A DNA stretch of 64,000 nucleotides, taken from the NCBI RefSeq assembly GCF_903645315.1, contig NZ_CAHJXL010000001.1, positions 3,400,841 to 3,464,840 on the forward strand. Reading direction: 5' to 3'. The translations under genes were made by a program, and so were the position numbers. Within the stretch, counting starts at the first letter, position 1, and each line of letters starts with the position of its first letter. Under the pieces are notes generated by a model that made no database searches, was not told the origin of the DNA, and worked only from the letters and a program-made list of their open reading frames with translations. The DNA comes from Victivallis sp. Marseille-Q1083. GTDB taxonomy: Bacteria > Verrucomicrobiota > Lentisphaeria > Victivallales > Victivallaceae. Shown one piece after another: positions 3,401 to 59,162 of the stretch.

Positions 3401-4905
3401 AGTTCGGTCGCCGGCTGGCGGGTGTCGGCAATTTCCATGGAGCGCTTTTCCTGAAAAATATTTTGCAGCAGTGGAAACTCATTCATATCCACATGCCGCA
3501 GCCGATCGATCTGCGGGGAGATCCCCGGAGCTGTCCATTCATAAATATTTTCAACGAACCGGCCGTCGCGATATTGAAAAATGTAAGCGCGATCGGCGCC
3601 GATATGGGAGCCGGTCGCCCCAAGCATCCTCCTGACCGCCTCGCCGGAATCTTCGGCGATGATGATTTGCTGCAGGCATTGATTGATGATTTGTTCGTTG
3701 CCTACGTGATTGTCCAGCCTGGCGATCAGCGATTCCTGCTCTTCCCGCATCCGGCGGCTTATGCGCCGGAAACGGATATGGATAATGACCAGCGCCGCGA
3801 CCAACGCAGTCAGCAGGAAAAGGGCGGCGGCGGCGGCGGCGACCGCTTCACGGTGGGATTCCCACAACGGAATATCGCGATTGACGGTCAGGGTTCCCGC
3901 CGGCAATCGCGACGCCGGCAGATTGAATTTTTTCATAACGGCCATATCCGCGACGAATTCACCGTTGTCGTGGACAAAGGGGATGGCCGCGGCATGGTTG
4001 TTTTTCAGAATCCGCCGGATGAGCTGAGCCATTTCCCGCCCGCCGGTAGCGCCGCGCGACATGCAGCCCCCCAGGGCCCCCTGGCCGAGCAGAACATCGG
4101 TGATGACCAGATAAGGCCGGCCGGTTTTTTCGAGTTCCCTGCCGACGTTGAGCAAAGAAGAATACCCGTCCCGGGCATAATTGCGCCAGGGACAGAACAC
4201 GACGAAGGATTTTTCCGGCATCGAACGCACCGCTTCGAGCATCTGCGAGGTGGAGTATTGCGCGCCGTTGATCAAAGTGAGCCTGCAGCGCTTGAAATCG
4301 GCGGCTTCCGCCTGCAGCCGTTGATGAATCTGCATCCCGGAAGGAAAATCATCGGTTACCACGGCGATTTCCTCGGTATCCGGCATCAGCGCCAGGCCCA
4401 TTTCAATGGTTTTCAGCACCTGGAAATCGACCGCGACCCCGGTGATATTGGGGTGAAGCCGGGTAAATCCGGGAATCAGCTCCTGATAACCGCAGAACAC
4501 AATCGGCTGGTCGGGCGGAACGGAATCGAGATTTTTGATCAGAAGATTGATCGCGTCGTCGAGGATTGCCACCACCAGGTCATATTTACGTTCCCGGATG
4601 GCCCGGCGATAGGGCTCGAATTTGCCGATGAAATCCGAACTCCGGTTGCGGACGGCATTCAATTCCAGATAATCGACGATCGGCGTTTCCGGCATTTGGT
4701 CCAGTTCCCGGATGATGGCGTTATTGACCTCCGACGTCCATTTATGAGAAAGGTGGAATGAAGAAATCAGCAGGATTTTCGGCACGGCCTGCGGTTCCGC
4801 GGGAACTTGCCCGGCGCGGACGCCGGATACCGGCGCCAGCAGACAGAACCATATCAGAACTGTTCCGGCGAATGTCGCCAGTCGGTCTGTTTTCCGTCCG
4901 GTCAT
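418..4905 (-). CDS. Membrane-anchored hybrid sensor histidine kinase with periplasmic binding-protein-like sensor
   Basis: The N-terminus is a signal-like segment, followed by a periplasmic region of about 300 residues that resembles the ABC_sub_bind family. A hydrophobic span lies near residues 350-380. GAF and PAS modules follow, then a HisKA box with SHEIRTPLNAVIGF near residue 1135, an HATPase domain (GGTGLGLAISRRL near 1315) and a C-terminal receiver domain whose ILTDLWMPGMNG carries the phospho-aspartate near 1425. Two PAS modules contain a C-x4-C-x8-C motif that also occurs in the kinase at 19342-21408. I chose ATG 4905 because it overlaps the stop of a leader ORF that has a strong ribosome binding site; an ATG five codons upstream is possible. 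There is no adjacent response regulator, so the output partner is unknown. Sensing a small periplasmic ligand is inference. Confidence 0.88.
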   Translation of the reverse strand: MTGRKTDRLATFAGTVLIWFCLLAPVSGVRAGQVPAEPQAVPKILLISSFHLSHKWTSEVNNAIIRELDQMPETPIVDYLELNAVRNRSSDFIGKFEPYRRAIRERKYDLVVAILDDAINLLIKNLDSVPPDQPIVFCGYQELIPGFTRLHPNITGVAVDFQVLKTIEMGLALMPDTEEIAVVTDDFPSGMQIHQRLQAEAADFKRCRLTLINGAQYSTSQMLEAVRSMPEKSFVVFCPWRNYARDGYSSLLNVGRELEKTGRPYLVITDVLLGQGALGGCMSRGATGGREMAQLIRRILKNNHAAAIPFVHDNGEFVADMAVMKKFNLPASRLPAGTLTVNRDIPLWESHREAVAAAAAALFLLTALVAALVIIHIRFRRISRRMREEQESLIARLDNHVGNEQIINQCLQQIIIAEDSGEAVRRMLGATGSHIGADRAYIFQYRDGRFVENIYEWTAPGISPQIDRLRHVDMNEFPLLQNIFQEKRSMEIADTRQPATELRNIADFILTQEVRSVRLCGIWEQGKLWGFMGMDFVRSFHSFSESDRKLLDNAVNLFLLARERRRQMREISDGAFLQKQIFDSVAIPIVMFDLDYNITVVNPASCHTIGRQPGELLGRKCYHALCGHDAPPEWCPMRLMLEDHQSHRINFHGHGDHHYQVTLQPIFNRDRQLTGALENALDITDLFKQKQEQEVTNVFLKRAGEIAEIIYFKGNAAGKVSLLGGNLRNAGTLKDNGEFVEWLLAEDRPAFLEEKKALVEGRKEVLEFVCRATAVSGEIRTYQLYATAYSRRDDIYLGILQDVTEAVKATAEKNDLILKQKAYVENEKIINACLTQLVQDENFDLNINHILKTLAKQLDSDRAYYGRYEPDGSYEITHEWLNAGVSSLLEVRDPRFKEQFSIWRRRFQNNELLEIPDIRNSRYAEVLREPGCRTLLCAPVAVNQRLHGIVGLGFIRHRRNISEFDENMIRSVAQIISLGLQRDARHRELKEAISDREAIFRNISMPIMFFDRTVKLTRVNPAVCNMVHKSEAEILAEPCHGTFCRQAREPAWCPVRQALKNGKDNQIEICLNGREYVIKAEPVLDENGEIRNIIESAVDVTEINESKRQLEKGFQAEQAANRAKSYFIASISHEIRTPLNAVIGFSELLKDGGLSAEEQLEYLNSISLAGNSLLQLINDVLDLSRLEAEQTVLTPQPTDLMKLLREVQAIFQYKAQQKNIFFRLDCPGNLPLFKLDSLRLRQILLNLVGNAVKFTERGGIAVNTEFSPAADCSAGMLTVSVLDTGAGIPAAVQKKIFNPFEQSDVIRDTHIHGGTGLGLAISRRLAERMNGEITLESQVGRGSCFTLVLKNVEIAVAEHISPEEKRIMPPETLRNPRVLLVDDVMMNLKVLEAMLRKLQIGCIMANSGPEALRLLAEDRDFTLILTDLWMPGMNGTELARKIHANPATAGIPIVVVTADSQISGDGAEEFQDVLLKPITLEKLQIILRRNQRPTH

Positions 4906-6741: not shown

Positions 6742-6885
6742 GTTTTTCTCGACATCGAAGTGGAAATTTATCATGGGAGGCGGTAAGATATGACAAAGAG
6801 CTGTATAAGTTGAGGCATTGGGGAGAAAATGCATTTTTGACATGAAAGCGTTGGCGCGGAATTGCAACCCGATATGCCAAGAACA

Positions 6886-43908: not shown

Positions 43909-43931
43909 TTAATAATCCATTGGACTAATAA
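43909..43931. promoter_or_regulatory. Imperfect palindrome, candidate upstream operator
   Basis: TTAATAATCCA and TGGACTAATAA around a central T form a palindrome (nine of eleven positions). It shares the CCAnTGG core with the site at 44048-44069, 138 bp away, and lies upstream of the promoter of the GntR-type gene. Confidence 0.4.
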
Positions 43932-43958: not shown

Positions 43959-43987
43959 TTGCTTTTTCTTCTTTTTTTTGCTATAAT
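43959..43987 (+). promoter_or_regulatory. Promoter of the first GntR/LacI-type regulator
   Basis: TTGCTT (43959-43964), 17-nt spacer, perfect TATAAT (43982-43987). Transcription would begin near 43994, about 130 nt before the start codon. Confidence 0.6.
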
Positions 43988-44047: not shown

Positions 44048-44069
44048 AAATATTCCAGTGGATTAATTT
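44048..44069. promoter_or_regulatory. Imperfect palindrome, candidate downstream operator
   Basis: AAATATTCCA-G-TGGATTAATTT, similar to the upstream copy (11 of 13 in the core). It lies in the leader, 54-76 nt before the regulator ATG. With the upstream copy it could support a repression loop. Confidence 0.4.
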
Positions 44070-44124: not shown

Positions 44125-45207
44125 ATGTTGCTGTTTGAACGAATTGCCGAGCAGATTGCCGAAGACTGTTATGGCCTGACGGTCGTTCCGAGCGAGCGCG
44201 AGCTGGCGGCACGCTATGATTGCAACCGGCTGACGGTCCGCAAGGCGCTTCGCAAGCTCTGCCGGCACGCGGTGCTCGAAGCGCTGCCGCGGGGCGGTTA
44301 TCAGTTTCCGGTGAAGCGGGAAGTGCCGGTTCCGGAATGTCCCCGGCCGACAACGGTGCTGCTGCTGTCGTTTGCCGACCGTTTCAACGACCCGGCTCAC
44401 ACCTATATGATCGGCGGCGCGGTCCATCAGGCCCGGCTGGCCGGCGTCGAACTGATGGTTCGGGAACTGGACCCGCTGCATTATGAGGAACAGGTTTGTT
44501 CGCTGCTGGACAGCCTGTCGTTCGAGGCTTGCATTGTCGCCGGCATTTCACCGTTCCGGCTGACTGAAATCCTGGCTGCCGCCGGCCGGCCGCTGGTCAA
44601 TCTGGGGCTGTTCTACGAGCAGCGGACGATGGAAATTTGTCCGGATACGTTGCAGTTGCTGTTGTCGCTGTCCCATATTTATCAGCAGGTTGGGCATCAT
44701 CTGGCGATTCTGGGCCATCGCCGGATCATGTTGGCCTCGACGGTGAAGGACAAAGCGATCATCGAAATTCACCAGGCCTTGGAAGCGGCATTTCACCGGC
44801 TGGAGATCGAGGATTTTCAAATCGATCTCTACAATCCGGAAGTCGCCTGGGACGGCAAGACGCCGGAAGTGTTCCGGCAGGCGGCGGCGGAAACCGTGGA
44901 CCATCTTGACAGTCATACCGCACTGGTCATTGCGCAGGGACATATTTATGCGTTGGAAATCATCCGGCAGTTGCAGCAGCGCGGCATCCGTTTCCCGGAG
45001 GATATCAATCTGGTGATCCAGGGGTGCGAAACGGACTGGTTCATCGATGTTTACAACATCAGTTGCGTCTATGCCGAATATCGCGAACAGGGGATCGCCT
45101 GTGTCAAGGAAGTGATGCGGCAGATTCACAATGGCCGCAAGGAATCCGGCATCCGTTATACGCCGGCCCAATACATCATTCGGAATTCCACTCATGAGTT
45201 GATCTGA
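44125..45207 (+). CDS. GntR-headed regulator with LacI-type sugar-binding sensor
   Basis: 360 residues. The N-terminal 70 residues form a GntR winged helix ([26 protein letters not shown]). The rest resembles the periplasmic-binding-protein core of LacI/GalR regulators ([35 protein letters not shown]). ATG 44125 has AAGGAAG upstream; the longer frame is not needed. It precedes a pseudopilin and a secreted hydrolase gene on the same strand, so it likely controls them in response to a sugar. Confidence 0.85.
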
Positions 45208-45242
45208 TAAATTCAATAACCAAAGAAAAGGAGCATGTTGAA

Positions 45243-45890
45243 ATGAAAGTCAGAAGATTTACATTAATTGAACTGCTGGTTGTGATTGCCATCATCGCCA
45301 TCCTTGCCAGTATGTTGCTGCCGGCATTGAGCAAGGCAAAAGCTTCGGCACAGGCGATCCGTTGCGTGAGTAATCAGAAACAGAAGGGACTGGGAATTGT
45401 ATTGTATGCCGACGACAACGATGACTACGGTCCGATGGGCAGGGATGCCGGCGGCAATTTCTGGTACATGGTTTTGGCTCCTTATGCCGGAACTCAGAAT
45501 TATAAATGGGACTCGCCGGATTTTACGATCTGGAAACAGTGGTCCACGTCAATTTTCAGTTGCCCGGTCTTTGCCGGAGATGCGATGGATGCGCCGTACA
45601 GTTATGCAATTAATTACAATATCTGTGGTTATATGAACGGCGCGACAGTGGGCAATCCCGGCGTCAAACTGACCAGGGTTTTACGGCCGAGCGAGCGGGG
45701 ACATATCCTGGAAGGCATGGGTGCTTGGCAAATACATGGCAATGGCGCTCCGAAAACCATCGATCCGGACTGGTATCGTCACAACCGGAAAATGAATACG
45801 TTGTTCGTTGATGGCCATGTCGATACCGTCTGCGAGCTTCTGCAATGGCCGAGTGAAGTACTCTATCCGATTGTCAGCGATGAATGGTAA
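45243..45890 (+). CDS. Type II pseudopilin-like protein with H-X9-DG box
   Basis: 215 residues. A short basic leader and [20 protein letters not shown] form the prepilin cleavage/methylation segment, with processing before Phe7 and Glu at position +5. The C-terminal part has [15 protein letters not shown], exactly H-x9-DG, the box seen in large paralogous families in Lentisphaerota and Planctomycetota. AAGGAG before the ATG. It lies 35 nt after the regulator and 17 nt before a secreted enzyme. A role in presenting or exporting that enzyme is inference. Confidence 0.88.
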
Positions 45891-45906
45891 GAATCGGTCT
45901 GTATTC

Positions 45907-48330
45907 ATGCGATTGTTACTTGCTTTGCTGTTCATTCTCTCCGGCCGGTTGGCCGTCGCCGGAGAGGAAGAAGATCGGTTGCTGTATGATTTCGGCAGGA
46001 CCGATAAGACTACCGAATTGACCTGGCGTGGCGTGGAAGGTGGATTGGAGACGGTGCCGGACGGCAGCGGCAGGAAGGCACTGCGGCTCCATTATCCGGT
46101 CGAGGAGGCTAATCAATGGCCGGCGCTTGTCGTGCCGGGAGGAGGGTTGTCAGAAAATAACTTCATGCTGTACGAGCGGTTGACGCTGGAAGTTTTCAAT
46201 CCGGCCGAAAAAAATGAATTGTTGTTGTTTCATGCTGTCGGAGTGGACGGAGGAAAATATTTTTTTTCATTGACTCCGCCGCCCGGCTGGAGTATTCAGA
46301 ACATTCCAATCGATGAAATTCTGTTGAACGAACCGGTCAAGGAGATCCAACTGTTGCAGGACCGGGCGATGGAACCGCATGAAGTTTATGTCGGCAAGTT
46401 ATTGCTGCACGGGCCGCTCCATAGCGAGCGTATTCCGGCGGAGGAAACTTTGGAGAAGGTGTTCTGGCAATTGCTGGCCGCGCCGGAGCCGGTCGTGCCG
46501 GCCATTGTCGAACGGCGGCGGCTTTTGACGGAAAATTACCGGCAGAAGTTACAGCAACTTAGGCTGGTGAAAACGCCGTCGGAACAATTTCTAGCCGCGA
46601 AAGCGGTCGAAGCGTTGATCCCGGAAGCCGAGCGTCTGGCCGCTTTTCTGGTGGATGTGGCGGCGCTGGAGAGTAATAAGGGGCCGGTGTCAATTGGTTT
46701 CGTCGACGGACTTACCCGGGTTTATCCGGAGTGCGGTTTGTACCGGCCGCTGGCTGAGGGAAGCTGGGCATTGGCTTGTAATGAAGCGGAAGCGATTCAG
46801 CTTTGCCTGCTGCCGGCAGTGGAGTTGAATGGGGTTGTCGTTTCGTTGACGCCTCTGGTTCACGAAGCCGACCCGATGGCAATCCTGCCGGCTTCCATCG
46901 CGCCGGTCGGTTTTGTCAACACCATTCAACCGGCTTATCCGGTCGATTATCTCGGCTGGACACCCGATGTAGTACTGACAGGATTGGAATTCTGCCAATT
47001 GCCGCCGTACCGCTGGCAGCCGTTTTGGCTGGAAGCTGCGGCCGCTCCGGACCAGCGTCCCGGCATTTATCGTGGTGCGGTTACCGTTCGGGCCGACGAA
47101 TTGCCGGAACCGTTGCGGATTCTGATAGCGGTAGAAGTTTGGAATTTTCGTCTGCCGTCGAAAAATTCTCTGCCGCTGGCGATGACCGGCATTTATGAGG
47201 AAGGAATAAATGCTCCGCTGTTTGTGCCGGGAATTGGGGATGAAGATGTGCAGTTGTTCAAAAAATTCATTCGCAACGAATGTACGCAAAGTGAACTGAC
47301 CGCCGCTGCCGCCGAAATGGTCGCTGCTGTCGAACGTTATGAAACGTTCATCGCTTCCCACCGTATTCCGGTAGATAATATTTACCGTCGCCGTCCGCCG
47401 CGGCCGGAAAAACTTGCCGAATGGCTGAACGGCTCCAATACGGTGTTGAATCTATTCTGCTACGAGGATCCGGCCCAGCTCGGCTGGTTCGACGCGGTGA
47501 TGCCGACAGTGGAACGGCATGGCTGGCAACGGCGGGTTTATACGTATGGGTTTGATGAAATTCATCATTCGCAGTTTCCGGCGGCGTTTGCCGCTTATCG
47601 GGCATTGAAAGCAAAATACCCGTGGCTGCAGACGATGACGACAGCGTATGACGATTCGTTCGGAGTGGAAAGCGGCTTGGATGATTTGGTCGATATCTGG
47701 GTGCCGCTGACGACGGTCTACGAACAAAAGCAGGCTGAAATCGTTGCGGCGCGGAAACGCGGCAAGCAAATCTGGACTTACGTGGCGATGACGCCGGCGC
47801 CGCCGAGTATGAATCTGCTGCTGGAAACACCGGCAGTCGGAACCCGGATGCTGCCCGGCTTCTGGGCTTATCAGTCTGGAATCGATGGTTTCCTTTATTA
47901 TCTGTTGACCAATTATCATGCAAGTGTCCGTTCGGTCAATGCCGCCGGCGTCGCTGTCGAAGGCGGTGAGCAACCTTGGCCGGAACCGTTGCGGGGAGGG
48001 CCGTATACTAATTTGAACGGCAGGAGTTACCGCAATTATAATGGTGACGGCATGTTGGTCTATCCCGGCGAACGGGGGCCGCTGGCATCACTGCGGCTGA
48101 AGTTCTTTCGGGACGGCCTGGAAGATTACGAGTATCTGGCGTTGCTGGAACAAATGCTGTCCAGCGATTCCAATCTGCCGACGGCTTGGCGGCAAGCGGC
48201 TGAAAAACTGTTGTCGAGAGATGATGAGTTCCTCAAATCGACGACGGAATACAATCGCGACCCGGCTGCGCTGTTCCGGCGGCGGGCGGCGATTGCCGCA
48301 TTGCTGGAGCAAGCCGCCGCTTTCAGGTGA
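45907..48330 (+). CDS. Secreted DUF4091/GH123-like glycosidase
   Basis: 807 residues. Signal peptide MRLLLALLFILSGRLAVAG. Residues 40-200 look like a beta-sandwich. The centre has YTYGFDEIHH near 546-555, where GH123-like enzymes carry the catalytic Asp-Glu pair (about Asp550-Glu551). The C-terminus GERGPLASLRLKFFRDGLEDYEYLALL is the DUF4091 end. GH123 members act on N-acetylgalactosamine-type sugars, but the substrate here is unknown. The start at 45907 (after the signal-like start) is chosen; ATG 45880 is an alternative. It overlaps clpA tail-to-tail by 8 bp. Confidence 0.75.
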   Translation: MRLLLALLFILSGRLAVAGEEEDRLLYDFGRTDKTTELTWRGVEGGLETVPDGSGRKALRLHYPVEEANQWPALVVPGGGLSENNFMLYERLTLEVFNPAEKNELLLFHAVGVDGGKYFFSLTPPPGWSIQNIPIDEILLNEPVKEIQLLQDRAMEPHEVYVGKLLLHGPLHSERIPAEETLEKVFWQLLAAPEPVVPAIVERRRLLTENYRQKLQQLRLVKTPSEQFLAAKAVEALIPEAERLAAFLVDVAALESNKGPVSIGFVDGLTRVYPECGLYRPLAEGSWALACNEAEAIQLCLLPAVELNGVVVSLTPLVHEADPMAILPASIAPVGFVNTIQPAYPVDYLGWTPDVVLTGLEFCQLPPYRWQPFWLEAAAAPDQRPGIYRGAVTVRADELPEPLRILIAVEVWNFRLPSKNSLPLAMTGIYEEGINAPLFVPGIGDEDVQLFKKFIRNECTQSELTAAAAEMVAAVERYETFIASHRIPVDNIYRRRPPRPEKLAEWLNGSNTVLNLFCYEDPAQLGWFDAVMPTVERHGWQRRVYTYGFDEIHHSQFPAAFAAYRALKAKYPWLQTMTTAYDDSFGVESGLDDLVDIWVPLTTVYEQKQAEIVAARKRGKQIWTYVAMTPAPPSMNLLLETPAVGTRMLPGFWAYQSGIDGFLYYLLTNYHASVRSVNAAGVAVEGGEQPWPEPLRGGPYTNLNGRSYRNYNGDGMLVYPGERGPLASLRLKFFRDGLEDYEYLALLEQMLSSDSNLPTAWRQAAEKLLSRDDEFLKSTTEYNRDPAALFRRRAAIAALLEQAAAFR

Positions 48331-50635
48331 ACAGCAGCCGGTCGTTGGAGGCGGTCAACCGGACGGTGCCGCCTTTTTTCAATTTGCCGAACAGAATCAA
48401 CTCGGCGAGCGGCAACTGCAGTTCCCGCTTGATCAGCCGTTCGAGCGGCCGGGCGCCGAGTTTCGGGTCGAAGCCGTGCCGGGCCAGATAGGCGACCGCC
48501 GCATCGTCGGCTTCCAGCACGACATTTTTCGGCATCAGGTCGCCCTGCAGTTGACGCAGGAATTTCCGGACGATTTTCTGCATGATTTCCGGCGCGAGCG
48601 GATGAAAATATAAAATCCGGTCGAGCCGGTTGCGGAATTCCGGCGTGAAGAATTTTTCCACCGCCTTTTGCGGCGAATGCGCCGCCCGGGTGAGCACGGT
48701 TTCGCCGAAGCCGATCGGTTCGGCGTCCAGTTCCCGGGCGCCGACATTGCTGGTCAGCATGATGATCGTCTGCCGGAAATCCGCTTTTCGGCCGTTGTTG
48801 TCGGTCAGCGTGCCGTAGTCGAAGATTTGCAGCAGGATGTTGAAAACGTCGCTGTGCGCCTTTTCGATTTCATCGAGCAGGATCACGCCATGCGGCTGCC
48901 GGATCACGCCCTCGGTCAGCAGTCCGGCCTGTTCGAAGCCGACGTAACCGGGCGGTGCGCCGATCAGTTTGGAAACCGTGTGCTTTTCGGAGTATTCGCT
49001 CATGTCGAAACGCAGGAACGCGATGCCGAGCTGGCCGGCCAGTTGCCGGGCCAGTTCGGTTTTGCCGCAGCCGGTCGGACCGCAGCAGAGAAAGGCGCCG
49101 ATCGGTTTGAGTTTGTTGCCGATGCCGGCCCGGGCGATTTTGATCGAAGCGGTGACCGCTTCGATCGCCTCATCCTGGCCGAACACCTGGAGCTTCAAAT
49201 TCCGTTCCAGGTGGCGCAAATTGGTCTGCACGGTGGCGGTCAGCCGCTGCGGCGGCAAATTGGCCATGCGGGCGACCACCGCTTCGATTTCCGCCACCCC
49301 CAGCGTCTTGCGCCGCTGTTTGGCGCCGGAAAGCGTATTGGCCGCGCCGGCTTCGTCGATGACGTCGATCGCTTTGTCGGGCAGGAAGCGGTCGTTCAGG
49401 TGGCGGGCGGAAAGTTCGGCCGCCGTCTGCAGTGCGCCCGGGGTGTATTTGACCTGGTGAAATTTCTCATAGAACGGCTTGAGGCCGTGCAGGATTTCCA
49501 CCGTTTCGTCGATCGACGGTTCGGCGATGTCGATCTTCTGGAGCCGGCGGCTGAATGCCTTGTCCTTGAGAATGTGATTCTTGTAATCGTCGTAGGTGCA
49601 GGTGCCGATACAGCGCAGCGTCCCGGCCGCCAGCGCCGGCTTCAGCAGGTTGGAGGCGTCCAGTGCGCCGTTGCCGACCGAACCGGCGCCGACGATGTTG
49701 TGCAATTCGTCGATGTAGAGGATGCCGCGCTCCAGCGACTGAATCTCCTCGATGACTTTTTTCAGCCGTTCTTCGAAATCGCCGCGGAATTTTGTCCCGG
49801 CGATCAAAGCACCGAGGTCGAGCGCGAAAATTTCACTGCCCTGCAGCGTTTCCGGCACTTCACCGGCGACGATCGACCGGCACAGCCCTTCGATGATCGC
49901 GCTTTTGCCGACGCCGGCTTCACCGACCAGGATCGGGTTGTTCTTCTTGCGCCGGCAGAGAATCTGCATCGTGCGCTGCAGCTCTTCGGTGCGGCCGATG
50001 ATCGGGTCGATACGGCCCTGCCGGGCCTGTTCGGTCAAATCGACCGCATATTTTTCCAGCGCGCCGGCGGCCGTCCGCCGCGGCGCTTCCCCGTCGCCGT
50101 TCTCTTCATTCGCCGCGGCGTCCGCTTCTTCCGGTTCGTCGGGTTCCCCGTCATCCTCCCACTCTTCCGCGGCGGAATAGTCGCTGTCCCCTTCCTGAAA
50201 CAACGGATTGCCGGCGATGCACTTAATCAGCCCGAACCGGGTGATGCCGAGTTTTTTGAGGAAGAACACCGCGTGGGTCGATTCCTCTTCGAACAGCGCG
50301 ACCAGCGTGTCGATGACGCCGAAGGTGTGGCGCTGGACATTGACCGCATGGCGCATGGCGTTCTGCAGCACCCGGTTGACCGCCAGCGAACGCAACGGCG
50401 TGGTTTTGCGTCCGAAACTTTCGACCTGGTTGCGGAGGAAATCCAGCAGTTGCCGTCTCAGCGTTTCAATGTCGATATCCAGCGGTTCGAACAACGCGGC
50501 GATGCGGGCATTGCGGCTCAGTGCGTACAGCAGATGTTCGGTCAGAACCAATTCATGGTGCAGCGACTGGGCCAGCTCTTCGGCTTGCTGCATGGCCAGG
50601 ATGAGTTCTTCACTGGGACGGGGCAATTCATTCAT
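48323..50635 (-). CDS. clpA: ATP-dependent Clp protease ATP-binding subunit ClpA
   Basis: 770 residues. The N-domain (SEELILAMQQAEELAQSLHHE) is followed by an acidic linker, D1 with Walker A GEAGVGKS near 240, and D2 with GPTGCGKTEL near 519. It unfolds substrates for ClpP. ClpS lies 8 nt upstream and supplies N-end-rule substrates. Normal ClpA length. ClpP is not in the window. Confidence 0.95.
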   Translation of the reverse strand: MNELPRPSEELILAMQQAEELAQSLHHELVLTEHLLYALSRNARIAALFEPLDIDIETLRRQLLDFLRNQVESFGRKTTPLRSLAVNRVLQNAMRHAVNVQRHTFGVIDTLVALFEEESTHAVFFLKKLGITRFGLIKCIAGNPLFQEGDSDYSAAEEWEDDGEPDEPEEADAAANEENGDGEAPRRTAAGALEKYAVDLTEQARQGRIDPIIGRTEELQRTMQILCRRKKNNPILVGEAGVGKSAIIEGLCRSIVAGEVPETLQGSEIFALDLGALIAGTKFRGDFEERLKKVIEEIQSLERGILYIDELHNIVGAGSVGNGALDASNLLKPALAAGTLRCIGTCTYDDYKNHILKDKAFSRRLQKIDIAEPSIDETVEILHGLKPFYEKFHQVKYTPGALQTAAELSARHLNDRFLPDKAIDVIDEAGAANTLSGAKQRRKTLGVAEIEAVVARMANLPPQRLTATVQTNLRHLERNLKLQVFGQDEAIEAVTASIKIARAGIGNKLKPIGAFLCCGPTGCGKTELARQLAGQLGIAFLRFDMSEYSEKHTVSKLIGAPPGYVGFEQAGLLTEGVIRQPHGVILLDEIEKAHSDVFNILLQIFDYGTLTDNNGRKADFRQTIIMLTSNVGARELDAEPIGFGETVLTRAAHSPQKAVEKFFTPEFRNRLDRILYFHPLAPEIMQKIVRKFLRQLQGDLMPKNVVLEADDAAVAYLARHGFDPKLGARPLERLIKRELQLPLAELILFGKLKKGGTVRLTASNDRLLFT

Positions 50636-50643
50636 AAAACCGG

Positions 50644-50946
50644 TTACTCCTTTTCCATTTCGCAGCGCAGCGGATACTGGTGTTCTTCGGCCAGCATTCG
50701 GACCTGGGCGACTTTGGTTTCCGCCACTTCGAACGAATAGACGCCGCAGATGCCGCGCCCCTGGCGGTGGACCGCCATCATGATCTGTTCGGCCGCCGCC
50801 AGCTTGTGGTTGAATACCACCATCAGGACCATGACGACGAAATCCATTGTCGTAAAGTCATCGTTGTAGAGCACCACCCGGTAACGCGGCGGTTCGGCCA
50901 GATCGGTGTCGCTGCGCTGTTGCAGCAGTTGTTCGGTCTGCGGCAT
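50644..50946 (-). CDS. clpS: ClpS adaptor
   Basis: 100 residues. YRVVLYNDDFTTMDFVVMVL is the ClpS core, VFNHKLAAAEQIMMAVHRQG continues it and VAEQIMMAVHRQGRG-type helix binds ClpA. ClpS delivers N-degron substrates. It lies between a small membrane protein (6 nt gap) and clpA (8 nt gap), one operon. Confidence 0.95.
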   Translation of the reverse strand: MPQTEQLLQQRSDTDLAEPPRYRVVLYNDDFTTMDFVVMVLMVVFNHKLAAAEQIMMAVHRQGRGICGVYSFEVAETKVAQVRMLAEEHQYPLRCEMEKE

Positions 50947-50952
50947 GATGGC

Positions 50953-51279
50953 TTACTCGTCCTGCTGTTCCGTCGGCGGCGCCGGTGGCTGCGTTTTCAA
51001 CAACTGCTGCAGCAAACTGCGTTCCTGGGTCCGCCGCCACTGCAGTTGGGCGCCGAGGGCGATCAACAGCCAGGAACCGGCGAACAGCAAGCCGAGATAA
51101 AAGACCTGGGTGATGCCGTTGCGCCGGTAATCGATGCCGATCATCGTCAGGATGGCCAGGCAGAAAAACAAGGCCAGGAAACGCAGTGACCAGGCGATCA
51201 CCCGCACCCGGGAGTTCGGCAGCCTGGCGGCGAGGATTTCCCGCTTCAGCGCCGCGGTTTCTTTTTCGTTCAACAACAT
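50953..51279 (-). CDS. Small two-span membrane protein
   Basis: 108 residues. Hydrophobic segments near 27-48 and 57-78 lie between charged ends; the C-terminus is rich in Pro, Gln and acidic residues. No family recognised. It sits in the tgt-clpSA run, 31 nt after tgt and 6 nt before clpS. Confidence 0.6.
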   Translation of the reverse strand: MLLNEKETAALKREILAARLPNSRVRVIAWSLRFLALFFCLAILTMIGIDYRRNGITQVFYLGLLFAGSWLLIALGAQLQWRRTQERSLLQQLLKTQPPAPPTEQQDE

Positions 51280-51310
51280 GATCGCTCTCTTTCTTCAATT
51301 CAGGGGTTTG

Positions 51311-52417
<1,107 letters not shown>

Positions 52418-52966
52418 TTAAAGGGTGACGAACATGCCGTGATACAGCGTTTTCACTGCCTCGCTCCTGCCGAGTTCCGCGGCGATTCTGGCGGCGAAGG
52501 CGAAGGTCGCGCCCGGTCCTCTGCCGGTGATGATGCGGCCGTCGACTTCGGTGGGTTTGCCGGTCGGCTTGCCGCCGGAAAAGTATTCCTCGAAACCGGG
52601 GTAGGCGGTGAATGTCCGGCCGGCCAGCAGGCCGGCGCGGGCCAGGACGATCGGCGCGGCGCAGATGGCGGCGCAGAGCCGGCCGGCGCCGTAAGCGGCT
52701 TTCAGCGATTTCAGCACCGGGTCGCTCTCATAGAGATGCCTGGCGCCCGGCATGCCGCCGGGCAAAACGATGGCGTCGAAATCGGCGGCATGACACTCCG
52801 CCAGCAGCGCGTCGGCGGCGACGGTCAATTGATGGGCGCCGGTGACCTGCCGGCGGTCCAGTCCGGCGGCGGTGACGTCGAAATCGAGACGGCGCAGTAC
52901 GTCGATGGTGATGACGGCTTCACTTTCTTCGAAACCGTCGGCCAGAATGATTAAAATTTGGGGCAT
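52418..52966 (-). CDS. DJ-1/PfpI-family protein
   Basis: 182 residues, DJ-1 fold. The nucleophile Cys is in LCAAICAAPIVL at the elbow, and Glu in DGFEESEAV pairs with it. Related to YajL/ThiJ, which act as glyoxalase- or chaperone-like proteins. First gene of the run to clpA. Confidence 0.88.
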   Translation of the reverse strand: MPQILIILADGFEESEAVITIDVLRRLDFDVTAAGLDRRQVTGAHQLTVAADALLAECHAADFDAIVLPGGMPGARHLYESDPVLKSLKAAYGAGRLCAAICAAPIVLARAGLLAGRTFTAYPGFEEYFSGGKPTGKPTEVDGRIITGRGPGATFAFAARIAAELGRSEAVKTLYHGMFVTL

Positions 52967-53012
52967 CGTTCGGGTTTTCCTATTTTAAATTTATTTTTAT
53001 CCGGTCATCTTC

Positions 53013-53042
53013 TTGGTGATTTGCACCAGTTGCTTCTATATT
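53013..53042 (+). promoter_or_regulatory. Possible xerD promoter with repeated TTGCACCA
   Basis: TTGGTG (53013-53018), 18-nt spacer, TATATT (53037-53042). The octamer TTGCACCA occurs at 53021-53028 and 53044-53051, so a regulator may bind. Match to consensus is moderate. Confidence 0.3.
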
Positions 53043-53070
53043 ATTGCACCAAAATGGAGTTTTTGCCAGA

Positions 53071-53967
53071 ATGTTAGAGCGCAACTTGGAGTATTTTGTC
53101 ACATATTTGACGATGGAGCGCGGTTTGAGCCGCAACAGCGTGACGGCCTATCGGACCGATTTGAGCGATTTCATCGATTTTCTGCAACGCCGCCGTCTCG
53201 ATTCCGCCGCGGCAATCGACCGGGAGGCGATCCTCGATTACCTCGGCTCGCTGCAGGAAGCCGCCGTGGCGGCGACGACGCTGGCCCGGCGGTTGATCTC
53301 GATCAAGCTGTTCTGCCGGTTCCTGGCCCAGGAGAAAATCGTCGCGAACGATGTGACCGCGGTGATGGATTCGCCGAAGCTCTGGCAACTGCTGCCGGAT
53401 TATCTGTCGGAGCGGGAGGTGGAGCAATTCCTGCGGAGTTTCGCCGACACCGGCGGCGATCCGCTGCTGGAGCGCAACCAGATGATCATGGAATTGCTTT
53501 ATTCCTGCGGATTGCGGGTGTCGGAGGCGGTCAATTTGAAAATCAGCGCCGTCGATTTCGACGAAGCGACGCTGCGGGTCGTCGGCAAGGGCAGCAAGAC
53601 ACGGCTGATTCCGGTCGGCGAAAGGGCGCTGCAGATGCTGCGGCGGTATCTGCGCGAAGTTCGTCCGCAGTTGACGCAGAGCAACCGCGAACCGTTGCTG
53701 TTCCTGTCCAGGAACGGCCGGAAACTGAACCGGGAGTGGATCTGGAAAATGGTGAAGGACGCCGCCGTCCGCGCCGGCATCGTCAAAAATATCCATCCGC
53801 ACACGTTGCGGCATTCCTTCGCCAGCCACTTGCTGGCCAACGGCGCCGATTTGCGGGTCATCCAGGAGATGCTCGGCCACAGCGACATCAGCACGACGGA
53901 AGTTTATACCCATGTCGAGAGCAGCCGGTTGCTGGAGATTCATCACAAATTCCATCCGCGCGCCTGA
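53071..53967 (+). CDS. xerD: Tyrosine recombinase XerD-type
   Basis: About 298 residues. An N-terminal SAM-like DNA-binding region (YLTMERGLSRNSVTAYRTDL) precedes the catalytic domain: Arg in YSCGLRVSEAV, Lys in VGKGSKTR, HTLRHSFASHLL, GHSDISTTEVYTHV, with the nucleophile Tyr in the last. XerC/XerD resolve chromosome dimers. Its length and context (no phage genes) favour the housekeeping enzyme rather than an integrase. ATG 53071 is preferred over 53044. Confidence 0.88.
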   Translation: MLERNLEYFVTYLTMERGLSRNSVTAYRTDLSDFIDFLQRRRLDSAAAIDREAILDYLGSLQEAAVAATTLARRLISIKLFCRFLAQEKIVANDVTAVMDSPKLWQLLPDYLSEREVEQFLRSFADTGGDPLLERNQMIMELLYSCGLRVSEAVNLKISAVDFDEATLRVVGKGSKTRLIPVGERALQMLRRYLREVRPQLTQSNREPLLFLSRNGRKLNREWIWKMVKDAAVRAGIVKNIHPHTLRHSFASHLLANGADLRVIQEMLGHSDISTTEVYTHVESSRLLEIHHKFHPRA

Positions 53968-54110
53968 GGGCTTCCGGACTCCGGCGGCGGCGTTTTCCAT
54001 GGGATGGCTTGTTCCCGGCCAAACTGGTCGAGAAGTGTTTTTATGCTATTCACGATAATTTCTCCGGTTGTTTAACCAGTCTGTTATGAAACTGTGTTAA
54101 CCGTGTGTAT

Positions 54111-54192
54111 ATATCTGTATAAGTTTTTAATTTTTAATTAGTTAAACGACAAAAAATTCGTTTTATTTTTGGCTTTTTCCTTATACAGATAT
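54111..54192. promoter_or_regulatory. 13-bp inverted repeat pair upstream of the second GntR-type regulator
   Basis: ATATCTGTATAAG at 54111-54123 and its exact complement CTTATACAGATAT at 54180-54192 lie 69 bp apart. A further ACAGATAT occurs at 54131-54138 downstream of neither, but within the leader region near the promoter. The second arm abuts the -35 box, as an autorepressor site would. Confidence 0.5.
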
Positions 54193-54220
54193 TGACATTG
54201 GGACAGAATTTTGCTATACT
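54192..54220 (+). promoter_or_regulatory. Sigma-70 promoter of the second GntR/LacI-type regulator
   Basis: Perfect TTGACA (54192-54197), 17-nt spacer, TATACT (54215-54220). Transcription would start near 54227, 35 nt before the ATG. Confidence 0.75.
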
Positions 54221-54261
54221 ATCCAATGTAACAGATATAGCACATAGGATCAGAAAACACA

Positions 54262-55476
54262 ATGTACCGCCGTCCGACCAAATCACAATCGATTGCCGAT
54301 GCCGTCACCACTGCAATTGTCAACGGGGAATTGAAAGCCGGAGAACGCCTGCAGCCGGTCCGTCAACTGGCGGCGCAATTCGAAACCAGTCCGCCGGTGG
54401 TGCAGAGCGCGCTGGACATTCTGGAGCGCAACGATCTGATCATCCGCAAGCCGCGCAGCGGGATCGTGGTGAAGCCGTGCCGCCATGACGGCGGGGTGAA
54501 CAACGGCAAGGTGCTGGTCTGCCTGCCGGCCAGTTGCCGGATCATGCAGAACATGTGCCGGCTGCTGGAAACCAAATTGCGGGGGAAATCAGGTTGGTCC
54601 GAGCTGGAACTGCATCGCTCGATCGGCAAGATCCTGCCGCCGATCGGCCAGTTGTACCAGGACATCTTCGAACTGATGCATGAACGGCTGAACCAGAACG
54701 GTTTGCTGCCGGTGCTGGCCAGCCACGACCTGATCATGAAGCCGATGCCGAATCCGGCGCTGATGAACCATTTGAATGCGGCGCTGGAGGACGATTTGCA
54801 GGCGGCGATCGTGTTCGGCAAGGACTATATCGACAATCCGTTTCTGCAGAATTTCCCGTCACTGCGTTCGATTTTCCTGTTTGAGCTGGATTACCCGGAA
54901 ATTCCCGGCAACGCGGTGCTGCTGGACTTCGAGCAGGCTTTCTATATGATGACGGCGCACCTGGCGAAACTCGGCCGGAAGCGGATCATGTTTTCGGTTT
55001 CCGAGCCGCACCGGTCGCCGGCTCAGCCGGGCTGGAACAACCAGCACCATTTCCTGATGATCTACGGCGGCTACGAACGGGCGCTGCGGGAGTACAATCT
55101 GGCCAATTACAATGTGAAATTCACCGGCATCTACGGCAGCTATATCACCAAAAAAGTGCTGGCCGACATCATGAGCGCGCCGAACCCGCCGGACGCGATC
55201 ATGTGCCATATGGATTTCTGCGCCCTGAATTTCATCAAGGCGGCGCAGGAGCTGGGCATCCGGGTGCCGGAGGACCTGGCGATCACCGGGTTTTTCAACA
55301 CCGCCTGGTCGGATTATTCGCCGGTAAAGATCACGACGGTCGGTTTCGACACCGAGGAGCTGGTCAACGCGGCGGTGGCGCTGGCCCGCGACCTGCCGGC
55401 GGAGCGGCGGGTGATTTACCTGAAACCGCAGTTATATATCAAGGATTCCTGCGGCGCGAGCCTGGAATTGTTGTAG
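54262..55476 (+). CDS. GntR-headed regulator with LacI-type sensor (second copy)
   Basis: 404 residues. GntR helix-turn-helix QPVRQLAAQFETSPPVVQSAL and SGIVVKP wing at the N-terminus, then a binding-protein-like domain (GRKRIMFSVSEPH, GIRVPEDLAITGFFNTAWSDY). It heads a cassette with a pseudopilin, a LamG-endonuclease/phosphatase-like protein and a GH18 protein. Its architecture parallels that of the regulator at 44125. Confidence 0.87.
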   Translation: MYRRPTKSQSIADAVTTAIVNGELKAGERLQPVRQLAAQFETSPPVVQSALDILERNDLIIRKPRSGIVVKPCRHDGGVNNGKVLVCLPASCRIMQNMCRLLETKLRGKSGWSELELHRSIGKILPPIGQLYQDIFELMHERLNQNGLLPVLASHDLIMKPMPNPALMNHLNAALEDDLQAAIVFGKDYIDNPFLQNFPSLRSIFLFELDYPEIPGNAVLLDFEQAFYMMTAHLAKLGRKRIMFSVSEPHRSPAQPGWNNQHHFLMIYGGYERALREYNLANYNVKFTGIYGSYITKKVLADIMSAPNPPDAIMCHMDFCALNFIKAAQELGIRVPEDLAITGFFNTAWSDYSPVKITTVGFDTEELVNAAVALARDLPAERRVIYLKPQLYIKDSCGASLELL

Positions 55477-55641
55477 TGAAAACGGAAAAATGAGTAGTCT
55501 GGAAGAGGGTTGTTTTCCCCGGATGATCGGAAATTTGCTGCCTGGCGCGCACGGCGGCGGAGGAACGGTGTTCCTGGCGGAAAATGACCGGAAGCCATTC
55601 GATAACAAGGATAACCGGAAATACGAGAAAGGATTCGAACG

Positions 55642-56352
55642 ATGAAAAAAGGCACTTTCACACTGATTGAATTGCTGGTAGTAATTGCTATTATAGCTAT
55701 TCTTGCCAGTATGCTGCTGCCGGCGCTGGCCAAGGCCAAACAGGCGGCGTTGAGTTCCAATTGCCGCAGCAACCTGAAACAGTTGGGGTTGGGGTTCGTC
55801 ATGTATTCCAACGATTCCGATGATTTTCAAATGCCGGTATATCCGGCGATTGATCCGGATCCGGCGGTGGCGTATTGCTGGGCGGCCGGTCTGATGGAGT
55901 TATACGGACTGGGCGAAAAGGTGATGACCTGTCCGTCCGGACCGATCACCAAGCTGATTTACCAGGCCAATATCGACGCCGGCGGCATGTGGGGCTCGGA
56001 CAAAAACGCGTTGGGGATCGATTGGGGATATGTGACGGTCGAGGATGCCACCAGCGGCAAGACGGCGACGCCGCGGGTTTGCGGTTATACGGTGTCGGCG
56101 ACGGTCAACGGTTATACGCCGTGGAAGAACAATACCAATCTGCGTTACGGGCCGTCGGAGATGTACCAGTGCTCGGACGGTACGACGATGGACTTCGATT
56201 ACAACTGCCTGGACCGTATTCACAACACCAGAATCCGCCATTCCGGCAAAGTGAACTGGGCGTTCATCGACGGCCACGTCGAAGCGGTCAAAATGGGCTC
56301 CAGAGAGCTGAGCGACAAGGATTATACCCGGCTCTACGACCTGCGGCCCTGA
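55642..56352 (+). CDS. Type II pseudopilin-like protein with H-X9-DG box (second copy)
   Basis: 236 residues. Prepilin segment [20 protein letters not shown] follows MKKGT; the end has [15 protein letters not shown], an exact H-x9-DG box. It is a paralogue of 45243-45890, with a nearly identical N-terminus and an otherwise diverged body. Synonymous codons in the hydrophobic segment (gtagtaattgctattatag) are AT-rich compared with the rest. It stands between the regulator and the secreted enzymes. Confidence 0.88.
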
Positions 56353-56436
56353 GGCGGTAGTGCCCTGCGGCGGCGGCTTTTCCGCCGCCGGTTAAGTGGA
56401 ACGATGGAAAAGTCAACGAATCGAAAGGAAACGACG

Positions 56437-58068
56437 ATGATGACAGTGCGGCGCATGACGGCAATTCTGCTGGCGGCAATCGGGCTGTGGAGTGTGAATG
56501 CCGCGAGGGCGGAAGAGGTGCACCTGGATTTCGATACCGGCATGGTTTCGCGCTTCGAGCCGCGCAATTTGAACGGTTCTTCCTATGGCCGGGTGGAACT
56601 GCAGACCAACCGCTTCTGCGAAGGGATCAACGGCGGCCGGGCGCTGGATCTGTCGAGCCGGGCGGCAGTCCGGATTCCGCTGCTGCTGGAAAATGCGGTG
56701 AATTACGACGAAAGTTTCAGCGTGGCGCTCTATGTCAAAACCTTGCCGGAGGCGGCGCAGGGAACGGCGATCGCCGGCAACTGCCGTTATGAGGAGGCGG
56801 CCGGAACTCCCGGCTGGCTGATTTATGCGCAGGAAAACGGCGCCTGGGCGGTTCGATTTTCCGACGGCCGGAAAACCTATTTTTACCGGCCGACCGCCCG
56901 GCAGGCGATCAACGACGGCCGGTTTCATCAGTTGGCTTTCAGCGTCGATTATGCCAACGAATGTGTGCGGTTTTACCGGGACGGCGTTTGCCGGGCGATT
57001 TACCGCACCCCCGACCTGGGCAGCCTGGCGGCCGGCCGGACGGTGATCGGCGGTTCGGCCGATCAGGAATATTTCGGCCAGGAATACGCCTTCAACGGGA
57101 TGCTCGATGAAGTGCGGTTGTGTCAGCAGCCGTTGACCGACGCGGCGATGCGCATCGAATTCGAAACCTGTTTCCCGGACCGGGCGGCGGCGGAACCGCG
57201 CAACCGGACCGGCCGGCTGCGGCTCTTGGAGTGGAACATCTGGAGCGCCGGCAAAAATTTCGGCCGCAAGGTCGGCCTTGAGCGGACCATTGAAATTCTC
57301 CGGGCCGCCGACCCGGACATCGTCGGTTTGGTCGAGACCTACGGGCACGGCGCCGAACTGGCCGACGCATTGGATTGCCAATTGTATCTGATCGGCGATA
57401 ATTTGTCGATTCTGAGCCGTTATCCGATCGAGCAGGTGATCCGGATTTACGATCCGGTGTTGTCCGGCGGTGCGATCATCCGGCTGGACGACAAGCGCAA
57501 AATTGCCGTTTTCGATCTCTGGCTGCACTATCTGCCGGATTATCTGGGCAGTATCACCGGGGGCGAGAAAAAGACGGCGGCGGAGCTGATCCGGGACGAG
57601 GAGCCGACCCGCCATGCCGAGATCAAGCAGATCCTGGCCGAGCTGGAACCGTTCCTCGCCGGCGCCGACACGGTACCGGTGATCATGATGGGGGATTTCA
57701 ACGGCGGTTCGCATCTGGATTGGACGACGGACAATACCGCGCCGCATCAGGGATACGCGGTGGAATGGCCGGTCAGCAAAACGATGCAGCAGCATGAACT
57801 GGTCGATTCCTATCGGCTGCTGAATCCGAACATTCACACTTCGCCGGGCGCGACCTGGTCGCCGTGGATGATTCCCGGCCGCTATGACGTCGATCGCCAG
57901 ACTTTGCCGGACCGGGTCGATTACATCTATTTCAAGGGCGCGTTGCTGCGGCCGCTGCATTCGCAGGTCATCGACTATCACCCGGTGATGTTTCCGTCGG
58001 ACCACGCCGCATTGCTGACCGATTTCGCCTGGGTGGAAACGGCGGAGCCGGAAGGAGGCGCGCAGTGA
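56437..58068 (+). CDS. Secreted LamG-endonuclease/exonuclease/phosphatase family protein
   Basis: About 543 residues. Signal peptide MMTVRRMTAILLAAIGLWSV to ARA. Residues 25-245 form a LamG/concanavalin-like domain (MLDEVRLCQQPLTDAAM). Residues 250-540 are an EEP domain: LEWNIWSAG, DIVGLVETYG, MMGDFNGGSHLDW, and SDHAALLTDF with the catalytic His. The EEP domain can be a phosphodiesterase acting on nucleic acids, sphingomyelin-like lipids or sugar-phosphates. The substrate is unknown. ATG 56437 has AAGGAAACG upstream; ATG 56404 is possible. Confidence 0.8.
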   Translation: MMTVRRMTAILLAAIGLWSVNAARAEEVHLDFDTGMVSRFEPRNLNGSSYGRVELQTNRFCEGINGGRALDLSSRAAVRIPLLLENAVNYDESFSVALYVKTLPEAAQGTAIAGNCRYEEAAGTPGWLIYAQENGAWAVRFSDGRKTYFYRPTARQAINDGRFHQLAFSVDYANECVRFYRDGVCRAIYRTPDLGSLAAGRTVIGGSADQEYFGQEYAFNGMLDEVRLCQQPLTDAAMRIEFETCFPDRAAAEPRNRTGRLRLLEWNIWSAGKNFGRKVGLERTIEILRAADPDIVGLVETYGHGAELADALDCQLYLIGDNLSILSRYPIEQVIRIYDPVLSGGAIIRLDDKRKIAVFDLWLHYLPDYLGSITGGEKKTAAELIRDEEPTRHAEIKQILAELEPFLAGADTVPVIMMGDFNGGSHLDWTTDNTAPHQGYAVEWPVSKTMQQHELVDSYRLLNPNIHTSPGATWSPWMIPGRYDVDRQTLPDRVDYIYFKGALLRPLHSQVIDYHPVMFPSDHAALLTDFAWVETAEPEGGAQ

Positions 58069-59162
58069 AACGGCGGCGGTTCTGGATTCTGGTCGCCGGC
58101 GTTCTGCTGCTGGCCGGCTGCGCTTCCGGCCGGCCGGAAACCGGACAGCCGTTTCTGACGGCCGGTTATTATTACGGGGCGCCGGATACCCTGAAGGAAC
58201 TGCCGCCCTCGGCGGTCGATTACGGTTCCTACCGGCTGATTTATCACGCCTTCCTGCTGGCGGACCGGGAGGGCCGGCTGCTGGAACAGCCGGACTGGGG
58301 AATGCCGTCGGCGGAGCTGGTGCGTCTGGCGCATCGGCACGGCTGCCGGATCATCGTTTCGCTCGGCGGTGGCGGGTACGACGTGTTCCCGGCAATTGCC
58401 GCCACTGACGAAGGGCGGCGGCAATTCGTTCAACGGGTGGTGGAGTTTGTCCGGATTCACGGTTACGACGGCGTCGACCTCGACTGGGAACCGCCGCCGG
58501 TTGACCCGGCGACCGGCGAACACTGGTCCGCGCTGATTCGGCAGTTCCGCCGGGCGCTGGACGACCTGGGGCGGACGCAGTCGCGCCGTTATTATTTGAC
58601 GACTGCGCTGCCGCCGGGCGAATGGGCGGTCCGCCGGCTCGATTACCGGACGATGCGGGAATGCCTCGATTATCTCAACTTGATGTGTTATGATTACAAC
58701 TGCGATCTGGCCGGTTATCAGGCGCCGCTGCTGCCGGACCCGGCCGACCCGACCGGTTCCGATTTGCGGAACGGACTGCGATTTATCACCGAAACGGTCG
58801 GCATGCCGAAGGAAAAACTGTTGATCGGCATACCGTTCTACGGCCACCGTTTTTCCGACAGTGAAAAATACCGGAAATACCGTCCGGAAAATCACCGCAT
58901 CGCGGGATTCAATCAGTTGTCGGCGGAGTGGAGCGACGGTTGGCGGCTTGAACGGGAACCGACATCCGGCGCGGCCTGGCATTACAGTCCGGACCGCCGG
59001 ATTTTCACCGTCTGCGACGATGCCGAAACGGTGAAACACAAGACGGCCTGGGCGAAAGCGCAGGGCTATGGCGGCGTTTTCTGCTGGGCGATGGCCCATA
59101 CGGCGATGCCGGACGGCAGCCAGCCGCTGGCCGAAGCGATGCGCCGGGCGGCAGAGGAATAG
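58065..59162 (+). CDS. GH18-family lipoprotein (chitinase-like)
   Basis: 365 residues. The signal ends with lipobox LLLAGCASG, so it is lipidated. GH18 motif YDGVDLDWE (DxxDxDxE) holds the catalytic acid near Glu142; LGGGGYDVF is the first conserved segment and CYDYNCDLAGY the later one. GH18 enzymes cleave beta-1,4-GlcNAc polymers or endoglycans. GTG start overlaps the previous gene stop by 4 nt (GTGA). It ends the cassette before a strong terminator. Confidence 0.88.
   Translation: MKRRRFWILVAGVLLLAGCASGRPETGQPFLTAGYYYGAPDTLKELPPSAVDYGSYRLIYHAFLLADREGRLLEQPDWGMPSAELVRLAHRHGCRIIVSLGGGGYDVFPAIAATDEGRRQFVQRVVEFVRIHGYDGVDLDWEPPPVDPATGEHWSALIRQFRRALDDLGRTQSRRYYLTTALPPGEWAVRRLDYRTMRECLDYLNLMCYDYNCDLAGYQAPLLPDPADPTGSDLRNGLRFITETVGMPKEKLLIGIPFYGHRFSDSEKYRKYRPENHRIAGFNQLSAEWSDGWRLEREPTSGAAWHYSPDRRIFTVCDDAETVKHKTAWAKAQGYGGVFCWAMAHTAMPDGSQPLAEAMRRAAEE

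Follow-up and report, generated by a model that had tools for sequence, protein, structure and literature searches.

The 64,000-nucleotide stretch of the Victivallis sp. Marseille-Q1083 genome analysed here (NZ_CAHJXL010000001.1, positions 3,400,841 to 3,464,840; hereafter the window) contains two gene cassettes, cassette 1 at 43.9-48.3 kb and cassette 2 at 54.1-59.2 kb, in which all genes lie on the same strand in the order regulator, prepilin, enzyme or enzymes. Cassette 1 opens with P0001 (44125..45207, + strand, 360 aa), a regulator with a GntR head (34.4 bits, cut-off 27) and a LacI-type sensor (Peripla_BP_3, 50.0 bits, cut-off 26.5). The prepilin P0002 (45243..45890, +, 215 aa) follows, and then P0003 (45880..48330, +; start codon at 45880 or 45907), a GH123-like enzyme with a signal-like start, in which a GH123_cat domain is predicted by profile (67 bits, cut-off 23.1, profile positions 144-324 of 324). 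In cassette 2, the regulator P0004 (54262..55476, +, 404 aa) shares the GntR head and LacI-type sensor, scoring 54.2 and 70.4 bits against the same cut-offs. It precedes the prepilin P0005 (55642..56352, +, 236 aa), P0006 (56404..58068, +; start at 56404 or 56437), which joins LamG to an endonuclease/exonuclease/phosphatase (EEP) fold behind a signal-like start, and P0007 (58065..59162, +), a GH18 enzyme (149.9 bits, cut-off 29.6) with a lipoprotein-like start whose lipobox was assigned by eye. The sequence DGVDLDWE of P0007 fits the GH18 motif DGxDxDWE. Both prepilins match the N-terminal prepilin motif TIGR02532 (P0002, 22.5 bits; P0005, 22.3 bits; cut-off 16.3) and share the same 24-residue N-terminal segment. 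P0005 also exceeds the cut-offs of DUF1559 (34.7 against 23.3) and of the H-X9-DG model TIGR04294 (24.6 against 19); P0002 gives no TIGR04294 match at 0.01, although H-x9-DG is present in it literally.

An earlier note on this DNA, made from the letters alone (the original prediction), gave the gene order, strand and coordinates of both stretches correctly, as judged by open reading frames and profile searches, and the GntR-headed sensor regulators, identical prepilin segment and enzyme families that it named were all recovered; the H-x9-DG box that it assigned to both prepilins holds literally in P0002 and by model match in P0005, though P0002 escapes the model. The note's description of a duplicated cassette did not survive. 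At 1e-5, P0001 finds only four of the fetched regulators, none of them P0004; for this reason, and because the two sets of enzymes come from different families, a plain duplication was rejected. Judged by these comparisons, the two cassettes have a common plan and no recent common origin. Among named relatives of P0004 in a collection of genome contigs, 20 of 21 matches end by residue 76, within the GntR head, and one ends at residue 102.

At least 57 sensor-pilin pairs occur in the genome, the two cassettes among them. Its 4.82 Mb, in 5 contigs, hold at least 161 prepilin starts and 101 LacI-type sensor domains (E 0.01), and a same-strand pilin start lies within 500 bp downstream of 57 of these sensors, against a mean of 0.77 and a maximum of 4 in 300 runs of random placement. 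The reverse order on the same strand, pilin before sensor, occurs 8 times (random 2.1), divergent pairs 8 times (1.85) and convergent pairs not at all (1.4); these orientation counts used distances fitted to a sensor domain about 570 bp into its gene and a pilin match at the N-terminus. Called genes give the same picture. In 116 stretches chosen around pilins (822 genes), a pilin directly follows a sensor 54 times, against a mean of 10 and a maximum of 21 when gene order is shuffled, with pilin-to-sensor neighbours at 8 versus 10, divergent neighbours at 7 versus 3.1 and convergent neighbours at 0 versus 3.4. The 160 called pilins include L064 (363 aa), a regulator flagged by overlap, and L114, a sensor-pilin fusion; with both corrected, the count is 55 rather than 54. 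Five of the 161 pilin hits have no called gene, and the gene caller, like the signal-peptide rule used below, was purpose-made by the author. As the pilin lists are limited to 150 scored out of 166-267 candidates per genome, the pairings are lower bounds. The median gap is 50 bp from sensor to pilin (n=55) and 56 bp from pilin to enzyme (n=129), and both are operon-like. Among the 71 non-sensor upstream neighbours of pilins, the 58 scanned (the other 13 being neighbouring enzymes and genes truncated by the end of a stretch) include 11 AraC-type regulators, 10 GntR-type heads, one DeoR and one ROK domain. Transposase families (IS110-type and others) occur among the upstream neighbours of several pilins, from L027 to L142, and may be what drives the exchange of parts described below. 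At L114 (4832-6652, − strand), a LacI-type regulator runs in frame and stop-free into a pilin; this 606-aa open frame would be either a natural fusion or the result of a lost stop between the regulator and pilin slots.

Behind the pilins lie mostly large proteins. A same-strand gene follows within 300 bp of 133 of the 160 called pilins, with a median length of 766 aa. The scan of 118 of 121 downstream proteins, for which 25 of 28 and 25 of 33 families are listed, recovers GH123_cat (21), DUF4838 (12), GH42 (7), LamG (6), DUF6259 (5) and GH20b (4). Signal-like starts are found in 94 of 114 enzymes behind pilins, compared with 1 of 20 other window genes and 7 of 75 regulators. From the enzyme side, 8 of 9 P0003-like matches in the genome, P0003 included, have a same-strand pilin start no more than 5.5 kb upstream, as do 9% of random positions. 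Neither window cassette contains SusC or SusD, and the family lists of the other scanned operon genes (25 families each, of 28, 33 and 47) do not include them. Proteins of 775-1019 aa behind the pilins of L075, L182, L185, L186 and L187 have no Pfam match at 0.001 and are candidates for new enzyme families.

The same order recurs in relatives, where the original prediction had proposed that regulator-pseudopilin-hydrolase units be sought. In two other genera of the family, 27 of 67 sensors (G003; uniform density predicts 0.42) and 43 of 140 (G013; 0.95) are paired with a pilin, and in another family of the class the pairing extends to 5 of 10 (G084; 0.05). The sensors used were 67 among 98 matches, 140 of 145 and 10 of 11, respectively, and the G084 pairing used 10 of 112 pilins, chosen by eye near sensors. 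All five stretches fetched from G084 read regulator, pilin, protein of about 960-1150 aa. Neither of the outcomes that the original prediction had named as contrary, an order confined to this genome or pilins placed at random beside unrelated genes, was found, as all three pairings exceed expectation. Pilin genes number at least 150 in each of three family genomes searched and 112 in the one genome of another family, and the H-X9-DG model is present in 59 of 155 genomes of the phylum. Homologues of P0003 at 1e-40 occur in 11 of 60 family genomes, its own counted, and 7 of 11 matches outside its own genome, from four genera, have a called pilin immediately ahead of them. In L179 and L177 the upstream open frame ends in a pilin-like DGH box (about 0.9 kb away in L177), L173 has no upstream pilin and L180 ends with its contig. 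Regulators upstream of these homologues combine GntR and sensor in L170, L171, L172 and L174 and are AraC-type in L175 and L178; the scan covers these six loci, not L176. The operon plan is thus real, conserved and much repeated.

The pilins themselves are nearly constant at the N-terminus and highly variable beyond it. The exact 24-residue segment is present in 135 of the 160 called pilins and is encoded by 135 DNA versions, with a third-position identity of 59%. Because 135 genes with the same residues carry 135 DNA versions, the pilin start is constrained as protein, and gene conversion was rejected as the source of the identical starts. The N-termini that the original prediction had called almost identical are identical in protein and not in DNA. 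In agreement with the diverged bodies that it also noted, few residues are fixed across the family: an alignment of 48 pilins shows two Cys, one His and one Asp as invariant, and a literal H-x9/10-DG is found in 128 of 154 own-genome pilins. Comparison with the PDB matches the N-terminal helix to GspG and PilA chains over at most the first ~70 residues. PDB relatives thus cover the N-terminal part only. P0002 and P0005 score 24.6 and 28.5 bits on the GspG model TIGR01710 (cut-off 88.85); the genome's own GspG scores 157.4. This GspG belongs to a type II secretion system (T2SS) operon in L141, with GspF and with GspH-, GspJ- and GspK-like genes below cut-off, and the genome has 12 matches to GspE/PilB-type ATPases, six of them strong. 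Based on these genes, shared assembly machines are predicted to be present. A 23S rRNA intervening-sequence protein gene (PF05635; L141 4754-5113, − strand) lies within the T2SS operon, right after gspG.

Both cassettes have repeats near the promoter of the regulator. In cassette 1, a word scan of the window finds the palindrome TCCANTGGA (no strand assigned) at 43916..43924 and 44054..44062, candidate operators 1 and 2 of P0001. The pair, 138 bp apart, flanks a TGNTATAAT element, and TATAAT after TGN at 43982..43987 (+), read directly and absent from the promoter scan's list, is a candidate extended -10. These are the only two copies of TCCANTGGA in the window; two per window are not rare alone (23 of 100 shuffles reach that number), and their closeness is unusual. 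In cassette 2, a sigma-70-like promoter (TTGACA-17-TATACT, 11/12 consensus) is predicted at 54192..54220 (+) in a stretch with 7 promoter-like sites, against 2.8 in shuffles. Half-sites of the word ACAGATAT, candidate operators of P0004, lie at 54111..54118 (−), at 54185..54192 (+), ending on the first base of the -35, and at 54231..54238 (+), about 10 bp past the -10. The window holds four copies (expected 0.63), three at 54111-54238 and the fourth inside P0002, the word having been picked after inspection of the cassette 2 repeats, which include an 18-nt inverted pair with 89% complementarity. The placement at the -35 and just past the -10 is a repressor-like geometry for these candidate operators. 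More telling for regulation are two observations: the longer cassette 1 form WTCCANTGGAHTA, written after both sites had been seen, is confined to 1 of 269 loci, namely cassette 1 itself (L120), and the site of cassette 2 is found again at L113, next to a regulator with 92% identity to P0004. Generic palindromes were rejected as a hallmark of cassette promoters because they are not enriched there (7 of 54 versus 11 of 60 control genes). Of the repeats that the original prediction placed near the promoters, the 18-nt pair and the two TCCANTGGA sites stand.

Parts of these operons are found in differing combinations. The regulator and promoter of L113 share 90% DNA identity with 54104-55490, but unrelated pilins and an unrelated enzyme follow. 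As this homology stops just after the regulator, the regulator moved together with its promoter; recombination inside the pilin start was rejected as the swap point, since only the conserved pilin start matches beyond. A 66% identical homologue of P0006 in L074 lies behind an unrelated pilin and sensor. The enzymes of L051 and L079 are 97% identical and the pilins ahead of them unrelated, one of these pilins lying 296 bp away. Conversely, the pilins of L059 and L075 resemble two of L111 (similarity 0.75 and 0.68), and the first enzymes behind them are unrelated. The similar pilins of L040 and L045 (0.92) were rejected as a further example because the two operons have a homologous gene in common, second in L040 and first in L045. 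These comparisons indicate that regulators, pilins and enzymes have been exchanged independently in several cases, with the slot order kept. In L087 and L111, the enzymes (2276-4720 in each) are 99.6% identical and the pilin bodies 0.82 similar, which points to a recent duplication after which the pilin changed faster.

Relevant systems are known elsewhere. In the available part of the account of Verruconatronum alginivorum (PMC13274419), a PulG-like pseudopilin lies in a depolymerase cluster that is reported to be induced on alginate, with 67 homologues in that genome, and a further pseudopilin is over-expressed, in a proteome with one replicate per treatment. This resembles the window cassettes in placing a pseudopilin within a glycan-depolymerase cluster; the account differs in concerning one substrate, and that part of it describes no per-pilin sensor, slot order or census of pilin neighbourhoods. 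In Lentisphaerae, laminarin raises secretion-system genes, with a pilin not mentioned in the accessible portion of that article (PMC11361711). DUF1559 has been described in Planctomycetes (PMC2754498, PMC5352709), with nothing on a sensor-pilin-enzyme layout in the portions available, and no description of this plan was recognised among the papers listed by searches of the open-licence PMC literature. PilB and PilC of Streptococcus sanguinis are described, in the part of the article at hand, as modular type IV pilins in which a pilin start carries a functional module, lectin-like in PilC (PMC8179133). The pilins considered here are alike in that a pilin start carries a further part. They differ in numbering well over 100 in one genome, in mostly heading glycan-type operons, often with their own sensor, and in having a module without a recognised fold.

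In Bacteroidota, Sus-type polysaccharide utilization loci (PULs) devote one sensor, a surface protein and exported enzymes to each glycan. The window cassettes likewise have a sensor, a predicted surface protein and enzymes with signal-like starts per locus; in contrast, their surface slot is a pilin and the SusC/SusD pair is missing from both. The operon layout and signal-like enzyme starts seen in the cassettes are consistent with PUL-like co-regulation. The regulators P0001 and P0004 have the domain layout of AraR of Bacillus, a GntR head on a LacI-type sensor, and differ from AraR-type regulators in heading pilin operons.

Based on these features, the cassettes are probably substrate-inducible, PUL-like glycan operons in which the pilin is exchangeable and relies on shared T2SS/type IV filament machinery. 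An AraR-like regulator would bind sites around its own promoter and keep the operon repressed until released by a sugar ligand. Derepression would then yield the pilin precursor, whose invariant N-terminal helix would permit processing and assembly by the shared machinery. The variable body would be exposed and most likely bind the glycan or its fragments, in a role analogous to that of SusD; binding of an enzyme for export would be the second choice. Most enzymes would act outside the cytoplasm by means of their own signal-like N-termini. The slots would be interchangeable in evolution and their order, sensor regulator, pilin, exported enzyme or enzymes, fixed. The arrangement suggests that each glycan may call up its own pilus subunit. 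The substrate induction of the original prediction is retained in outline only, through the sugar-type sensors, the candidate operators and the alginate-induced pseudopilin cluster of another member of the Verrucomicrobiota, as given in the available part of PMC13274419. A more far-reaching version, in which the sensors each switch on their own glycan-binding pilin and so re-dress one shared filament or secretion machine to suit the polymer present, with parts reshuffled between loci in evolution to give a combinatorial, pilin-based alternative to Sus, is put forward tentatively, its chances being somewhat below even.

Several observations weigh against this explanation. No pilin lies within 500 bp downstream of 44 of the 101 sensors, and about half of the pilins lack an adjoining regulator. 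The operator words of both cassettes were picked post hoc, after the sites had been seen; the longer cassette 1 word recurs with one or two mismatches at window positions 6796 and 23131, and ATACAGATAT, the cassette 2 site, also occurs once each in the unrelated records L145, L158 and L159. Signal-like starts are also found in 93 of 221 other long genes of these stretches, many of which belong to the same operons, and the genes behind pilins include some that encode no glycan enzyme (a RecQ-type helicase, an ABC transporter and a sodium:solute symporter). The AlphaFold pilin model has a pLDDT (predicted local distance difference test) of 50 and is confident in the helix only, so that the fold gives a glycan-binding body no support. 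Finally, body similarity tracks enzyme homology among close relatives, which cargo matching would predict as well.

Such matching is the core of the idea with which the original prediction closed, that a dedicated pseudopilin presents each enzyme in an export or display system. In this cargo-adaptor reading, the body of a pilin would recognise the enzyme of its own cassette and load it into the T2SS pseudopilus. The genome does have a T2SS, and pilin and enzyme adjoin in one operon. From the highest to the lowest bin of body similarity, pairs sharing a homologous operon gene number 9/26, 13/27, 4/33, 15/84, 61/484 and 544/7583; in 14 of 88 cases the most similar pilin comes with a homologous enzyme (mean 4.7 and maximum 12 under permutation); and GH123-like genes, 37% identical, occur in the operons of both the L040 and the L045 pilin. 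Mantel correlations are of similar size for pilin-enzyme (0.23), pilin-regulator (0.26) and regulator-enzyme (0.26). However, the pilin-enzyme r falls to 0.03, a value reached by 41 of 1000 permutations, once pairs above 0.3 similarity are dropped, and the partial r of pilin and enzyme given the regulator is -0.02 on 45 triples. Body similarity predicts enzyme homology only in part, and hardly at all without recent duplicates. Near-identical parts beside unrelated partners speak against matching as well: the enzymes of L074 and P0006 and of L051 and L079 follow unrelated pilins, and the L059, L075 and L111 pilins precede unrelated first enzymes. In other genera, P0002 is among the top five matches of only one of seven pilins beside P0003 homologues (L170, where it ranks fifth). 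Because parts change while the slot order is kept, strict pilin-enzyme matching is disfavoured, and a body that reads the glycan fits most simply; export of a dedicated cargo is judged rather unlikely.

Alternatively, the pilin could be an interchangeable filament subunit without ligand specificity, switched on when polymer is present to build a surface filament. The invariant helix, the slot-like swapping of parts and the few fixed residues of the bodies would all fit; about 160 highly divergent bodies would be hard to explain without specificity for a ligand or partner, and this proposal is considered improbable. Least credible by far is a chance neighbourhood, or a selfish or mobile pilin gene that spreads. 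The pilins are very numerous and Transposase_20 is found in 4 of the 58 upstream neighbours scanned, but the preferred order with its tight spacing, its conservation in another family of the class and the constraint on the helix at the protein level all count against this account.

Linking the numerous pilins of such genomes with sensors of sugars and with enzymes for export provides every one of them with a testable job. The sensor and operator of each cassette point to the inducer of an orphan enzyme, and the pilin-linked proteins, over 100 in number and many of them outside any named family, are candidates for new glycan activities. If true, the favoured explanation of inducible glycan operons with an exchangeable pilin would suggest how glycan degraders manage without a SusC/SusD pair in the locus.

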